A DNA stretch of 39,820 nt, from the NCBI GenBank assembly GCA_015066045.1, contig SVPD01000020.1:1-39820 (forward strand), given 5' to 3'. Shown piece after piece: positions 123-38,720 of this stretch. Numbering within the stretch: the stretch's first letter is position 1; the number at the start of each line of letters is the position of its first letter. The DNA is from Oscillospiraceae bacterium. GTDB taxonomy: Bacteria; Bacillota; Clostridia; Oscillospirales; Acutalibacteraceae. Under the pieces are notes generated by a model, which had not been told where the DNA came from, ran no database searches, and saw nothing but the letters and a program-made list of their open reading frames with translations. A program made the translations under genes and the position numbers.

Positions 123-156
123 AAAAAGAAAGACACCGCTTTTGCGATGTCTTTTG
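123..156 (-). terminator. Terminator behind the tRNA-Trp 3' remnant
   Basis: Read on the minus strand, AAAGACA and TGTCTTT flank a small loop and are followed by CTTTTTG. It sits directly after the tRNA 3'-end remnant at 155-178. This is the same arrangement as the terminator at 3624-3668 behind the intact tRNA-Trp. It is probably the original terminator of the tRNA-Trp transcript before the element inserted. Confidence 0.55.
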
Positions 157-178
157 GCAGGGGCAGAAGGGCTCGAAC
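155..178 (-). pseudogene. tRNA-Trp 3'-end remnant (T loop, acceptor strand, CCA)
   Basis: On the minus strand these bases match the last 25 nt or so of the intact tRNA-Trp at 3672-3747 with two differences: T loop, T stem 3' strand, acceptor strand TGCCCCT, discriminator G and CCA. The T-stem 5' strand does not pair well (AGTGG against CCTTC) and everything upstream is replaced by the hairpin module at 191-254. It is therefore a broken copy. It could be the original chromosomal 3' half, left to decay once the integrated element supplied a new one. Confidence 0.6.
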
Positions 179-190
179 CACTCCGTGGCC

Positions 191-254
191 CTCTTGCGGT
201 TCCCAAAATCGCTTTTCGGCTTGTAGCGCCGAGCGATTTTGACCGCTGCGCCAT
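191..254 (-). repeat. 64-bp tRNA-associated hairpin module, copy A
   Basis: On the minus strand this reads a 20-nt arm ending GCGGTCAAAATC, a 24-nt centre, and a 20-nt arm starting GATTTTGGGAACCGC. Both arms are identical to those of the two copies before tRNA-Leu (30895-30958 and 31049-31112), and total length is the same. The arms pair over 12 bp with a GGA bulge. The next two pairs differ from the other copies in a compensatory way (GC/GC here, CG/CG there). The centre holds a further TCGGC/GCCGA stem. The module has the same sense as the neighbouring tRNA. I do not recognise the family. Confidence 0.7.
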
Positions 255-303
255 TTCGTCCTCCCTTATTCCGCCACTGGCGGCGGTCGGACTCAAAGCC
301 CGC

Positions 304-319
304 CACGCGGTTTTGGAGA
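304..319. other. Left attachment site core (att)
   Basis: CACGCGGTTTTGGAGA is repeated exactly at 3702-3717, where it forms the anticodon loop and 3' anticodon stem of tRNA-Trp. The two copies bound the int-xis-parB segment as direct repeats, as expected for a tyrosine-recombinase element that uses a tRNA anticodon arm as its crossover site. Which end is attL and which attR is a matter of convention. Confidence 0.75.
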
Positions 320-2217: not shown

Positions 2218-3384
2218 ATGAATAAATTTTATGTAGAAAAAGGCAGCTTCTGTACGAAACTTTATATAGGTACAGACGCTAACGGAAAACCGAAATATAA
2301 AAAACTCAAGGCTCCATCGGAAAAAGAACTTGAAAAGAGAGTTCGTGAATATAAAAACGCCATGGATAGCGGTCTGAATATTCTCAAAAATAACGATACA
2401 CTTCTCAATTGGATTAACCATTATCTTGAATATGTTGAAAACGAGGTTATGTGTGACAACATCAAAGAGTCTGAGTATAAAACCCTGAAGGCAAGACTGC
2501 AATACTTTGTTGATTACAGTGGCGGACTTCTTGCAAAAACAAAGCTCAACGATATTCTGCCTTCGCACATTCAACCCGCCGTTAATGCTTTATACAAGAA
2601 AAATCCGTCAACGGGCAAAAACACGGCAAAGAAAACGCTTCAAAGATATATAAGGGCACTTGCCAATGTGTTTGAGTTTGCAAGAAAAGAGCGTGCGTAT
2701 AACTTCTGCAACCCTTGTGATGATATAAAGATACCGAAAAACGCAGAAGAAAACAGTCGTACTGCCATAAATAAGCACACAATACAGTTGATACTCACAA
2801 CAGAACACAGAGCAAAGCTTCCTGCCTGCATTATGCTTCTTGCGGGACTCAGGCGTGGAGAAGTAACAGCTCTTACTTGGTTTGATATCGACTTCAAAAA
2901 CAGAATTATAAATGTAAATAAATCTTATGATTTCAAGCAATGTGAACTAAAGGAAACAAAAACAAAAGCCGGAATGAGAAAAATTCCGATGAATGATTTT
3001 CTGTACAACTTACTTCTTGAAGCTAAAAAGCATTCTAAAGGCTCATATATCGTTCAGAAGGTTTACGGCGGAAGAATGACGGAAACAGCGTGGAAACGCC
3101 TTTTTGAAAGCTATATGGAAGCATTAAGGACAGCTGACGGCAGAGATGAAGATTCGCTTTGCTTTGCTGATGAGCGTTTTGAAGAATTCACTGCGCATCA
3201 GCTCCGACACACCTACTGTTCTATGCTTCAATGGTCGGGTGTTGATATAAAGACGGCACAGGAGCTTATGGGGCACAGTGAGTACGGTGTAACAGCAAAT
3301 ATTTACACTCATGTTGATGAGGCTACTAAAAATAATGCAGCTATGCTGCAGGATAAATTTATAAAGGAAACATTGATTTCATAA
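2218..3384 (+). CDS. int: Tyrosine recombinase / integrase (Tn916 Int class)
   Basis: A full-length 388-residue tyrosine recombinase. Residues 1-50 form a small basic beta domain of the arm-binding type; about 60-160 is the SAM-like core-binding domain; 180-388 is the catalytic domain. The catalytic set is visible: Arg in GLRRGE (212), HQLR (His327, Arg330), His353 in MGHSEY and nucleophile Tyr363 in NIYTH. The ATG follows AGGAGGAATTTTA. The gene is last in the element and ends 8 bp before a strong terminator, pointing at the tRNA-Trp gene whose anticodon arm is the att core. It should cut and rejoin the 304-319 and 3702-3717 cores. The protein appears intact, so the element may still be mobile given help. 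Confidence 0.95.
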   Translation: MNKFYVEKGSFCTKLYIGTDANGKPKYKKLKAPSEKELEKRVREYKNAMDSGLNILKNNDTLLNWINHYLEYVENEVMCDNIKESEYKTLKARLQYFVDYSGGLLAKTKLNDILPSHIQPAVNALYKKNPSTGKNTAKKTLQRYIRALANVFEFARKERAYNFCNPCDDIKIPKNAEENSRTAINKHTIQLILTTEHRAKLPACIMLLAGLRRGEVTALTWFDIDFKNRIINVNKSYDFKQCELKETKTKAGMRKIPMNDFLYNLLLEAKKHSKGSYIVQKVYGGRMTETAWKRLFESYMEALRTADGRDEDSLCFADERFEEFTAHQLRHTYCSMLQWSGVDIKTAQELMGHSEYGVTANIYTHVDEATKNNAAMLQDKFIKETLIS

Positions 3385-3535: not shown

Positions 3536-3558
3536 GGGGGGCACATTGGGGGGCACAT
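3536..3558 (+). repeat. Tandem G6CACAT repeats, right end (probable integrase arm sites)
   Basis: Identical to 360-382 and in the same orientation, 143 bp inside the right att core. The interval 3435-3623 otherwise holds no gene I can support; it probably contains further integrase and Xis binding sites. Confidence 0.6.
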
Positions 3559-3671: not shown

Positions 3672-3747
3672 TGGCAGGGGCAGAAGGACTTGAACCCTCG
3701 GCACGCGGTTTTGGAGACCGCTGCTCTACCAACTGAGCTATACCCCT
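3672..3747 (-). tRNA. trnW: tRNA-Trp (anticodon CCA)
   Basis: A complete cloverleaf. The acceptor strands AGGGGTA and TGCCCCT pair, the D arm is GCTCAGTTGGTAGAGC, the anticodon arm is GCGGT-CTCCAAA-ACCGC with anticodon CCA, the T arm is GAGGG-TTCAAGT-CCTTC, the discriminator is G and the 3' CCA is encoded. The anticodon loop and 3' stem coincide with the att core at 3702-3717. The 5' half is therefore chromosomal and the 3' half was brought in by the element. It lies just downstream of tRNA-Met under a shared promoter. Confidence 0.97.
3702..3717. other. Right attachment site core (att), inside tRNA-Trp
   Basis: Exact direct repeat of 304-319. It spans the anticodon loop and 3' anticodon stem of the intact tRNA-Trp, so integration regenerates a functional tRNA at this end. 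Confidence 0.75.
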
Positions 3748-4949: not shown

Positions 4950-4995
4950 ATGAATTCACCTCCTGTAATATTTTGTACCCTTGGTGTGAGAATTA

Positions 4996-5135
4996 AGAAA
5001 ACCCTTTCCCTCAAACCGAGAGAAAGGGTGACATAGTTAAACTGAGATAAATCTGAGTTAATTATGTTCCGTTCCTCGGCAGGCGGCATAAAGCCTTTAA
5101 GTCTGACACCTGCTGTCTTAGGGCTGGACAGCTAA
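4996..5135 (-). promoter_or_regulatory. L10 leader (ribosomal protein autoregulatory element)
   Basis: The 240-bp gap between rplA and rplJ carries the Firmicute L10-leader signature on the minus strand: AGACAGCAGG, then CCTGCCGAGG, which together form the kink-turn-like L10 site. Further on (4996-5029) ACCCTTTCTCTC pairs with GAGGGAAAGGGT and is followed by TTTTCTTAATT, an attenuator terminator. Excess L10-L12 complex is known to bind this leader and favour termination, which here would lower rplJ-rplL expression only. Confidence 0.85.
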
Positions 5136-5189
5136 AATATAATACCACAACATTTATTCAATGTCAAGCATTATTTTAAATTTTTAAAA

Positions 5190-30695: not shown

Positions 30696-30705
30696 AAGAA
30701 AAGAC

Positions 30706-30734
30706 TTGACTTAAAACAAGATATGTGCTAAAAT
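30706..30734 (+). promoter_or_regulatory. Sigma-A promoter of the tRNA-Leu unit
   Basis: TTGACT (30706-30711), 17 bp, TAAAAT (30729-30734). The tRNA starts some 400 bp downstream, so the structured leader and both 154-bp units should be transcribed with it. Confidence 0.8.
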
Positions 30735-30736
30735 AT

Positions 30737-30806
30737 TGCCTGTTGGTGTGATACCGACATTACGGATTAAGCGAAATGCTCCGTCTCGGCCCGCTCTTGC
30801 CGTGTA
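30737..30806 (+). ncRNA. Structured leader, resembling a ribosomal protein L21 leader
   Basis: Directly after the promoter come GGTGTGATACC (hairpin), ACGGA...TCCGT around GCGAAATGC, and CGGCCCGCTCTTGCCG. The motifs GGTGTGATACCG, CGAAATG and TCTCGGCCCG remind me of the Firmicute rplU (L21) leader. That is memory, not a search. No rplU follows; the leader runs into the tRNA-Leu repeats. It may be an orphan or displaced leader, or another small RNA. Confidence 0.4.
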
Positions 30807-30827
30807 AAAATTAAGAGTTAATGTTTT

Positions 30828-30981
30828 GCAGATGTGGCGGAATTGGCAGCATCGTCACCGAAACGCTCCCTGTGGGAGATGCAGTGAGGTGAGGATGGCG
30901 CAGCGGTCAAAATCCGATGAAGCGGATAGCGAATAACGGATTTTGGGAACCGCAAGAGTCCCGCGCTACGCAAATCAATAT
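30828..30981 (+). repeat. 154-bp tandem unit 1 before tRNA-Leu
   Basis: It begins with the first 22 nt of tRNA-Leu (acceptor strand and part of the D arm), then 132 bp unrelated to the tRNA. That part holds a hairpin with CTCCC/GGGAG at its tip and CATCgTCACC/GGTGAgGATG at its base, followed by the 64-bp module core at 30895-30958. It differs from unit 2 at one base only (30848). It lacks the anticodon and 3' half, so it cannot be a tRNA. Confidence 0.9.
30895..30958 (+). repeat. 64-bp tRNA-associated hairpin module, copy B1
   Basis: Both 20-nt arms are identical to the copy at 191-254 (minus strand); the 24-nt centre differs. The stem GCGGT-CAAAATCCG pairs with CGGATTTTG-GGA-ACCGC. The two pairs next to the variable centre are CG/CG here and GC/GC in copy A, a compensatory change. 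Same sense as tRNA-Leu. Confidence 0.75.
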
Positions 30982-31135
30982 GCAGATGTGGCGGAATTGG
31001 CGGCATCGTCACCGAAACGCTCCCTGTGGGAGATGCAGTGAGGTGAGGATGGCGCAGCGGTCAAAATCCGATGAAGCGGATAGCGAATAACGGATTTTGG
31101 GAACCGCAAGAGTCCCGCGCTACGCAAATCAATAT
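30982..31135 (+). repeat. 154-bp tandem unit 2 before tRNA-Leu
   Basis: 153 of 154 bases match unit 1. It shares the first 20 nt of tRNA-Leu, then diverges from the tRNA at the same place. It abuts the first base of the real tRNA-Leu, so fragment, unit and tRNA are in exact register: tRNA start, 154 bp, tRNA start, 154 bp, tRNA start. Confidence 0.9.
31049..31112 (+). repeat. 64-bp tRNA-associated hairpin module, copy B2
   Basis: Identical to copy B1, 154 bp downstream, inside unit 2. Confidence 0.75.
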
Positions 31136-31222
31136 GCAGATGTGGCGGAATTGGCAGACGCGCTAGTTTCAGGTACTAGTGAAAGCAATTTCATGTGGGT
31201 TCAAGTCCCATCGTCTGCACCA
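31136..31222 (+). tRNA. tRNA-Leu (anticodon CAG)
   Basis: An 87-nt class II tRNA including encoded CCA. Acceptor GCAGATG pairs with CGTCTGC, the anticodon arm is CTAGT-TTCAGGT-ACTAG with anticodon CAG, and a long variable arm follows (GAAAGCAATTTC). The T arm is TGGG-TTCAAGT-CCCA. It is intact, in contrast to the two partial 5' copies directly upstream. RNase P must find the correct 5' end just after unit 2. Confidence 0.97.
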
Positions 31223-31258
31223 GACTGTCCTGAAAGAAATTTCAGGGCAGTCTTTACT
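31222..31258 (+). terminator. Terminator of tRNA-Leu
   Basis: AGACTGTCCTGAAA (31222-31235) pairs with TTTCAGGGCAGTCT (31240-31253) with one mismatch, and is followed by TTACTTT. It begins at the last base of the CCA end. Confidence 0.85.
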
Positions 31259-37675: not shown

Positions 37676-38539
37676 TTACTGACCAAGATAGAAAAGAGCC
37701 TGTCCGTACTGCTCTTTACCGTATTCGGCGATAAGTGCGGAAGCCTCATCTCCCATCATCCACTCAATAAGAGCCTTGGCTCCCTCGGTGTTTACACCGT
37801 CCAGCTTTTCGGGGTTACACTCTATGAGTGAATATACGTTCTTCATATCTTCGCTTTCTTCCATAAGGATTTCGAGATTAAGTGAATCCTTGTTTGAAAG
37901 GAAGGTAGCTTTATCTGTGAGACAGTAAGCACCCTTTTCGCTGGCCATGGTAAGACATGCGCCCATGCCCTGACCTGCATTTATGTACCAGGTTTCTGCT
38001 TCTGCATCGGGAACACTTTCACCCCAGATTTTAAGCTCAGCCTTGTGTGTGCCGCTTTCGTCGCCTCTGGAAACGAAGGTAGCCTTGACGTCGGAAATTC
38101 TGCCGAATGCTTCAGCTGCATTTTCAGCACCGTCCTTGATGCCGGCCGGATCGTCAGCAGGACCTACGATTACGAAATAGTTATACATAAAGGGCTTTCT
38201 TTCCACACCGTAGCCTTCGTTGACAAACTCCTCCTCAGATGCTTTGGCATGAACGAGGATAAGGTCAGCGTTACCGTCTTTGGCTTTCTGGATAGCAGCT
38301 CCCGTACCGGCAGACTGTACCTCTACGGTGTAGCCTGTAGCCTTTTCGAAAACGGGAAGAAGATAAGGCAGAAGTCCCGAGTCATTGACTGATGTGGTGG
38401 TTGACATACGGATAACGGGATTAGCCGGTGTCTGCACCGAGGTGTCGGGTGCGGTGGTTTCCTCTCCGCCACCGCCGCCGCAGGCTGCGAGAGTGAAGAG
38501 CATAAGTGCTGCGAGTAATACTGCGAGAAGTTTTTTCAT
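37676..38539 (-). CDS. tupA: Tungstate-binding lipoprotein
   Basis: A 287-residue solute-binding lipoprotein. The signal peptide ends in LAAC with Cys20, and a Gly/Thr-rich linker follows. The TupA signature is MSTTTSVNDSGLL (about 46-58), which binds the oxyanion, then GTGAAIQKAKDGNADLILVHA and FVSRGDESGTHKAEL. TupA binds tungstate much more tightly than molybdate in studied cases. ATG follows AAAGGAGAATGAATT. It is first in the long tup-moe-moa operon; a structured leader lies upstream. Confidence 0.94.
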   Translation of the reverse strand: MKKLLAVLLAALMLFTLAACGGGGGEETTAPDTSVQTPANPVIRMSTTTSVNDSGLLPYLLPVFEKATGYTVEVQSAGTGAAIQKAKDGNADLILVHAKASEEEFVNEGYGVERKPFMYNYFVIVGPADDPAGIKDGAENAAEAFGRISDVKATFVSRGDESGTHKAELKIWGESVPDAEAETWYINAGQGMGACLTMASEKGAYCLTDKATFLSNKDSLNLEILMEESEDMKNVYSLIECNPEKLDGVNTEGAKALIEWMMGDEASALIAEYGKEQYGQALFYLGQ

Positions 38540-38553
38540 AATTCATTCTCCTT

Positions 38554-38720
38554 TTCAATCACGGAAGGTATGAGGGTTTCCCCAAAATACCCTTTGACCG
38601 GTACCTGTGTATTTTTCTCCCTACAGGCAGTGTTTTTTCGGTCACGCACGGATTTTCGTGGGCAAAGCCTTTAGAATATGCCGTGTCGGAATATGAATTA
38701 ATGCGGCAGGACCGCCAACT
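38554..38720 (-). promoter_or_regulatory. Structured leader before tupA, candidate Moco/Tuco or other metal-cofactor riboswitch
   Basis: The 250-bp region before tupA, read on the minus strand, can form several helices: CACGG with CCGTG, TGACCG with CGGTCA enclosing CCTGT/ACAGG, and GGGTAT with ATACC around GGGGAAACCC just before the ribosome site. Leaders of the Moco/Tuco class are known before tup and moa genes. I cannot match the Moco consensus by eye, so identity is open. There is no open frame here. Confidence 0.4.

Follow-up and report, generated by a model that had tools for sequence, protein, structure and literature searches.

Comparative analysis of a short hairpin repeat from an Oscillospiraceae bacterium identified a unit that we interpret, with a probability of roughly 0.55, as a non-autonomous mobile hairpin element of about 110 nt that is conserved in sequence and fold and invades the loops of tRNA genes. 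The points in favor of a mobile element are the copy number, presence or absence at the same site, sharp ends, recurrent insertion nucleotides, covariation, and nearest relatives within the same genome.

In the window (the whole stretch of DNA that was analyzed, 39,820 nucleotides), a sequence-only reading had described a 64-bp module with identical arms at three places. Direct reading bears this out exactly with respect to the arms, the equal total length, the positions and the strands: the 20-nt arms ATGGCGCAGCGGTCAAAATC and GATTTTGGGAACCGCAAGAG are identical at 191-254 (minus strand), 30895-30958 and 31049-31112 (both plus strand). The 24-nt center between the arms differs between locus 1 and locus 2, and the compensatory change claimed for the inner pairs can be read off as well, the innermost two pairs of the 20-24-20 module being GC/GC in one locus and CG/CG in the other. 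The size had to be revised: the module is the 3' half (P2) of a two-hairpin unit of about 110 nt, with the second hairpin, P1, located just upstream. The relevant features of the window, including matches to a covariance model of the unit (R1), are as follows.

155..180, minus strand: tRNA-Trp-like 3' end (T-arm part, acceptor strand, CCA), downstream of copy 1 (by comparison with the intact tRNA-Trp)
191..299, minus strand: unit copy 1, 109 nt (R1 match of 126.7 bits; fold; alignment)
about 191-246, minus strand: P2 hairpin of copy 1 plus AAGAG (fold and alignment)
about 246-299, minus strand: P1 hairpin of copy 1 (fold and alignment)
304..318, minus strand: tRNA-Trp-like anticodon-arm piece CTCCAAAACCGCGTG, upstream of copy 1 (by comparison with the intact tRNA-Trp)
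3672..3747, minus strand: intact tRNA-Trp (ARAGORN; Rfam RF00005)
30827..30980, plus strand: first 154-bp tandem unit, consisting of a tRNA-Leu 5' piece, the hairpin unit and a tail
30828..30849, plus strand: copy of nt 1-22 of tRNA-Leu(CAG), ending at the D-loop edge (GGCA/G), then the unit
30849..30958, plus strand: unit copy 2, 110 nt, P1 then P2 (R1 match of 102.1 bits)
30981..31134, plus strand: second 154-bp tandem unit
31003..31112, plus strand: unit copy 3, 110 nt, P1 then P2 (R1 match of 102.1 bits)
31136..31222, plus strand: intact tRNA-Leu(CAG) (ARAGORN; Rfam RF00005)

The two 154-bp tandem units are 99% identical, each including the first 22 nt of tRNA-Leu(CAG), and this second locus, with copies 2 and 3, represents the upstream-type arrangement described below.

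The tRNA-Trp-like pieces around copy 1 are 3.4 kb away from the intact tRNA-Trp. The interval encodes a tyrosine integrase (2218-3384), a ParB-domain protein (1066-1914) and an unnamed ORF (461-1045), and the motif ATGTGCCCCCCAATGTGCCCCCC is found near both ends, at about 360-383 and 3536-3558. Judging by this sequence organization, the segment 155-3747 is probably a small integrative element at tRNA-Trp, the far tRNA piece of which also holds the unit. Two ordinary structured RNAs in the window score above the Rfam cut-offs, namely, a ribosomal protein L10 leader (4987-5140, minus strand) and a molybdenum/tungsten cofactor riboswitch (38532-38703, minus strand).

The unit was delimited by aligning 23 and 15 of 26 copies that were collected with their flanks from 8 genomes. 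In these alignments, conservation begins about 48-50 nt upstream of the 64-nt module; the R1 matches span 109-110 nt in the window, and most of those elsewhere are 104-117 nt long. The parts follow one another in the order P1, short linker, P2, AAGAG. P1 consists of an outer stem, an internal loop with G-A residues, a second stem, a 2-bp helix that covaries (CC/GG, GC/GC or AC/GT) and a tip of the form NNCC-loop-GGNN; P2 comprises the GCGGT/ACCGC pairing, then a 9-bp stem set off from it by a 3-nt GGN bulge in the 3' strand, and a variable tip of at least two types. A box C/D-like kink-turn and hammerhead cores were considered and dropped because the residues vary. The 5' end is sharp, with G at position +1 in 133 of the 136 tRNA-flanked copies and 70 of the 72 other copies; position -1 is a purine in 195 of 208 copies and is otherwise variable. 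The 3' end reads CGCAAGAG, with exceptions mostly within the last three letters, and the same unit ends recur where copies are arrayed head to tail, with a period of 110 nt in L048 and of 107 nt in L050. At two loci (L092 and L093), about 100-150 nt to the left of P2, P1 harbors a different hairpin, GCACAACGGAGCGGTGAGC ... CGATGAGCGAGTTTGTGC, which gives the appearance of a palindromic element inserted into a second one.

Single-sequence folding of five units gave z-scores between -2.4 and -3.9, and the two-hairpin fold was the minimum-energy structure in four of them; in the fifth (L022), P2 was kept and P1 was different. In an alignment of 15 sequences (A3) built by MAFFT without structure, on which a structure named from these same sequences was tested, 98.9% of the cells pair, double-sided changes affect 15 of the 29 pairs, and the alignment reaches a covariation score of 0.409 compared with 0.139 in shuffles; the count of further pair types in A3 is no higher than in shuffles (20 vs 19.5). 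Slid structures, used as a control on the same alignment, reach at most 41.8% paired cells. For a more independent check, 24 units (20 from genomes outside the genus of the window and 4 from named records) went through a sequence-only alignment and de novo folding with RNAalifold. The same P1 was recovered, as was the base of P2, and 19 of 24 pairs show double-sided changes, in a set that leans towards the model because the units were found by the model or the arm pattern. The sequence-only reading had supposed a selected structure and proposed a covariance model; double-sided changes are indeed present also in units from other genera.

The paired cells of distinct units (a separate filter, at least 95 nt, 212 units kept) comprise 5806 Watson-Crick, 72 G-T, 29 A-C and 124 other combinations, compared with 737, 47, 8 and 27, respectively, in the acceptor stems of 117 tRNAs encoded at these loci. 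Thus, G-T is rarer in the unit stems than in tRNA acceptor stems, yet commoner than A-C, which is a hint that the strand in the tRNA sense is the folding strand; the sequences are related, and the hint would apply to RNA and single-stranded DNA alike. Double-sided pair changes and this asymmetry on the tRNA-sense strand both speak for the constrained single-strand fold that had been proposed. Joint change of the two arms might also result from a passive spread that needs no enzyme of its own: forks would stall at the unit hairpins and at tRNA palindromes, and template switching would copy the unit together with sense or antisense bits of the target and keep the hairpin arms complementary. The cell changes in A3, 63 double-sided and 2 one-sided, fit this explanation, as does the frequency of tandem copies; the preserved bulge and G-A loops, both of which arm correction would erase, and the predominance of G-T over A-C on one strand do not. 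We treat passive spread as a possible but clearly secondary explanation, to which the tRNA flanks discussed below are also relevant.

With up to 3 mismatches allowed, the arm pattern occurs at 11 places in the genome of origin, that is, in more than the two loci initially noticed, and 9 of the 39 genomes searched are positive; read backwards, the pattern has no match in any of the 39. R1 detects the unit in 32 of 34 congeneric genomes, with 12 copies in the genome of origin and up to 32 in one congener (G041). Under stricter filters than those of the congeneric search, 42 of the 291 genomes and 31 of the 181 genera in the class sample are positive, along with 6 of the 398 genomes in the phylum sample, 3 of these outside the class. 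Among the matches listed, the named records with the exact arm pattern belong to Clostridia, Oscillospiraceae and related MAGs, many of them from the ruminant gut. Phage records contain only 2 partial matches of 31 nt each, plasmid records contain no matches to the unit, and in IMG/VR, 2 stretches match by exact pattern; on these counts, carriage by phages or plasmids was rejected as an explanation.

No named family had been recognized for the module, and the search of Rfam 15 concurs: no family scores above its gathering threshold over the unit in the window, none is found over the unit in 30700-31250 at E up to 5, and no credible one is found over the unit at nine further loci at E up to 1. 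The lone Rfam match near a unit edge or tail is to tmRNA, with 11.9 bits against 47 (L010). Among the titles and abstract openings found in the open-access literature search, none describes the unit. Going by Rfam 15 and this search, the element is apparently undescribed. Two other RNAs were observed in the vicinity of units. An RT-6 RNA (RF03027; L013, 2726-2799, minus strand), which lies near a reverse transcriptase gene on contig C55 of the genome of origin, is about 0.3 kb from a unit, a proximity that was taken as coincidence; and a T-box leader is present in the flank of one unit (L010, 1945-2186, minus strand).

The genomic context was analyzed in a set of fetched loci that were picked non-randomly, so that all fractions apply to that set. 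It contains 256 R1 matches (A4-A6), of which 208 are unique and flanked on each side by 60 nt or more; the other 48 were left out for being below 81 nt in length (12 matches), for having less than 60 nt of flank (21) or for having duplicate flanks (15). A tRNA match is present in one or both 60-nt flanks of 136 of the 208 copies, compared with 7 of 208 on the left and 1 of 208 on the right for shuffled flanks. An intact tRNA predicted by ARAGORN lies within 400 nt of 114 copies, on the same strand in 113 cases and on the other strand in one (Leu 41, Pro 37, Ser 11, Met 10, Trp 7, Asn 3, Lys 3, Gln 1, Thr 1). The proposed link to tRNA genes thus holds for the orientation in the tRNA sense, but the unit is not confined to tRNA loci: in 72 of the 208 copies, there is no tRNA-matching 60-nt flank. 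Some copies, in G041 and other genomes, lie in unrelated intergenic palindromes, and one intergenic repeat, AAGCTTGTGGGGTTCAAGGGGC, is found without the unit beside L090 and with the unit in L089. By raw count, 38 of the 208 units are within a stop-free frame of more than 150 aa.

Where a sense tRNA match reaches the left edge of the unit (64 copies, the last up to 3 nt of each position being extrapolated), it ends at nt 20-22 in 47 copies, at nt 36-37 in 13, at nt 18 in 3 and at nt 50 in one; the recurring insertion points are the edge of the D-loop (nt 21/22) and the anticodon loop (36/37). The upstream type of arrangement, typical of Leu and many Pro loci, consists of a leader, the tRNA 5' part, the unit, a short tail and the intact tRNA. 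The downstream type occurs at Pro, Trp, Met, Asn, Lys and Ser: on the left side, the intact tRNA or its 3' half, often with a terminator, is followed by a tRNA-antisense stretch; on the right side, the unit is followed by the tRNA 3' part and, in several cases, the same terminator again. Many of the copies that carry partial tRNA are located beside an intact one. In the copies that were read, the upstream type is without the 3' half and the downstream type without the 5' part, and a tRNA intron (group I or other) was rejected on this ground.

The tRNA-antisense stretches, found in 37 left and 3 right flanks of the 208 copies, favor passive spread, and so do the antisense-like tails (p<=0.05) of 19 of the 47 upstream-type copies, a proportion that led us to reject the antisense tail as a general rule. 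Template switching accounts for the antisense tRNA pieces and the joint arm change; it accounts less well for the recurrence of the insertion nucleotides, the bulge and the G-A loops, and sharp ends likewise count against it. A closing stem of at least 5 pairs between the left and right flanks is present in 98 of the 208 copies; when the right flanks are swapped, 72 of 208 still have one (p 0.014 for duplex energy), which makes the signal too weak for a rule. The left flank alone folds into a hairpin in 203 of 208 copies, compared with 295 of 375 random 30-mers.

A pattern search for tRNA-Leu(CAG) identified 28 places in 27 of the 34 congeneric genomes; 27 places, one per genome, were assessable (L282, at a piece edge, was left out). 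The region upstream of this tRNA is filled in 10 genomes, holds a degenerate unit in one (G045) and is empty in 16, where "empty" denotes absence of the core motif within 420 nt upstream; in G002, G013 and G039, one or two loose end-motif matches are found within that distance. For example, G014 and G011 are empty but have a leader recognizably in common with G000 (the genome of the window) and G017, in which two tandem units follow this leader. Judging from occupied and empty alleles in different species, the unit looks like a mobile one; alternatively, the filled state at tRNA-Leu(CAG) could be old and followed by losses. Ahead of tRNA-Pro(TGG), an IMG/VR contig (L284) has a head-to-tail pair of units that differ from each other, and by eye this locus resembles L048, the two units of which are 99% identical.

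The nearest relative of a unit belongs to the same genome in 79 of 126 cases (with shuffled labels, the mean is 2.1 and the maximum is 9), and in 52 of these 79 pairs, tandem neighbors included, the flanks carry different tRNA labels or a label is absent. This pattern fits copying within genomes or gene conversion between copies. Dispersed foldable copies combined with occupied and empty sites are what characterizes small palindromic mobile repeats, and both are found for this unit; with presence and absence at one locus and many copies per genome, the earlier suspicion of a small mobile unit gains substance. Fold, boundaries, copy number, site preference, strand, presence/absence polymorphism and partial tRNA duplication can be regarded as established by comparison of sequences.

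The same data bear on the alternative that the unit is a resident RNA with a regulatory or processing role in tRNA transcripts, retained for tuning tRNA expression. Although the conserved fold, the strict tRNA strand (113 of 114) and the location of upstream-type copies between leader and tRNA, where they are probably co-transcribed, are compatible with such a role, the same tRNA has an empty allele in 16 of 27 genomes, many different tRNAs are involved, downstream-type copies are located behind the tRNA terminator, and 72 of the 208 copies are without a tRNA flank. A resident RNA is thus decidedly unlikely, and none of the analyses made here points to the tRNA-processing signal that the sequence-only reading had considered.

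For a mobile hairpin element, the reading that we prefer, we envisage that an enzyme acting in trans would recognize a folded single strand, most likely of DNA, and copy it into hairpin loops, both those of tRNA genes and those of other intergenic palindromes. At tRNA genes, insertion goes along with duplication of part of the tRNA, which leaves an intact tRNA in place. Recognition of a single strand at hairpin loops is favored because such loops are what the unit targets in tRNAs and because the unit itself consists of paired imperfect hairpins. The search for a mobilizing gene, which covered two families (Y1_Tnp and RVT_1) in 34 congeneric draft genomes, found none.

Y1 matches are present in 21 of the 34 congeneric genomes, and the two imperfect hairpins, the absence of terminal inverted repeats and the palindromic targets would all suit an IS200/IS605-type MITE or a REP sequence that depends on a Y1 (HUH) transposase or RAYT for its movement. 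Nevertheless, Y1_Tnp has no match in 13 of these draft genomes, 12 of them with the unit, the left edge has no fixed target word, no units are found in six RAYT-like loci, and four of the five RAYT-like genes that were read are flanked by different palindromes of their own. A Y1 transposase, which in these drafts and loci neither tracks the unit nor shares palindromes with it, was rejected as the mover, and we consider this origin highly improbable. The RAYT-like Y1 genes flanked by their own palindromes are those at L249, L250, L251 and L254; an example of these palindromes is GACAGGGGACGGTTCTCTGTC (L250 and L254).

An RNA route, whereby the folded RNA would be joined to tRNA loops and the chimera reverse transcribed and recombined into the tRNA locus, appears very unlikely. 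Some units are preceded by tRNA 5' pieces and others followed by 3' pieces, which is consistent with such a route, as are the sense orientation and the antisense tRNA pieces; the duplicated terminators behind some downstream copies point to DNA, and RVT_1 is found in 6 of the 34 congeneric genomes, with 26 of the 28 genomes that have no RVT_1 carrying the unit. A reverse transcriptase was rejected as the mover because RVT_1 presence does not track the unit, in a search that used Pfam RVT_1 on draft genomes and leaves room for other reverse transcriptase families. Another idea, distinctly unlikely in our view, is a minimal RNA-borne selfish element, with the tRNA-element chimera (D-loop 21/22, anticodon loop 36/37) written back into the locus. 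Such an element would explain the 5' and 3' tRNA pieces, the antisense stretches, the sense-only orientation and the survival of the intact tRNA; given the few RVT_1 matches, it would need another or an undetected polymerase.

The unit appears to be an uncatalogued structured element that is abundant in gut Clostridia, where as many as 32 copies were detected in one genome, and that enters tRNA genes inside loops, not at the 3' end. The kind, a small palindromic mobile repeat, is already known, and the tRNA-loop habit is the new part. At 110 nt, it offers a compact system for studying the movement of gene-less palindromic repeats, with the assets of recurrent insertion points and of occupied and empty alleles in close relatives. 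It also explains some of the broken tRNA pieces in these assemblies, and the covariance model would allow annotators to detect and name the element.

Several known systems share features with the unit. REP sequences are imperfect hairpins in intergenic DNA that occur in many copies, which is common to REP/RAYT and the unit; the unit is longer and has two hairpins, and the RAYT-like genes of this genus are flanked by palindromes other than the unit. MITEs derived from IS200/IS605 have hairpin ends, are devoid of terminal inverted repeats and employ a single-strand substrate, and the unit differs from them in that the left target word is not fixed and Y1 does not track it. Integron attC sites are folded single strands with extrahelical bases, a property in which the unit, as a possible recombination substrate, is similar, but attC features were not noticed in it. 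Integrative elements that use tRNA 3' ends as attachment sites, phages and plasmids among them (PMC10589994), likewise target tRNA genes and leave displaced tRNA pieces; in contrast, the unit is gene-less and inserts inside the D- and anticodon loops, not at the tRNA 3' end. Rickettsia palindromic elements, bcr1, RU/ERIC and BOX (compare PMC2759123 and PMC2267715) resemble the unit in being foldable sequences of about 100-170 bp that are gene-less, occur in many dispersed copies and are mobile by comparison; this comparison was made by description, and by sequence only through Rfam. Compared with these families, the unit stands out by its specific two-hairpin consensus, recurrent insertion into tRNA loops and partial duplication of the tRNA.
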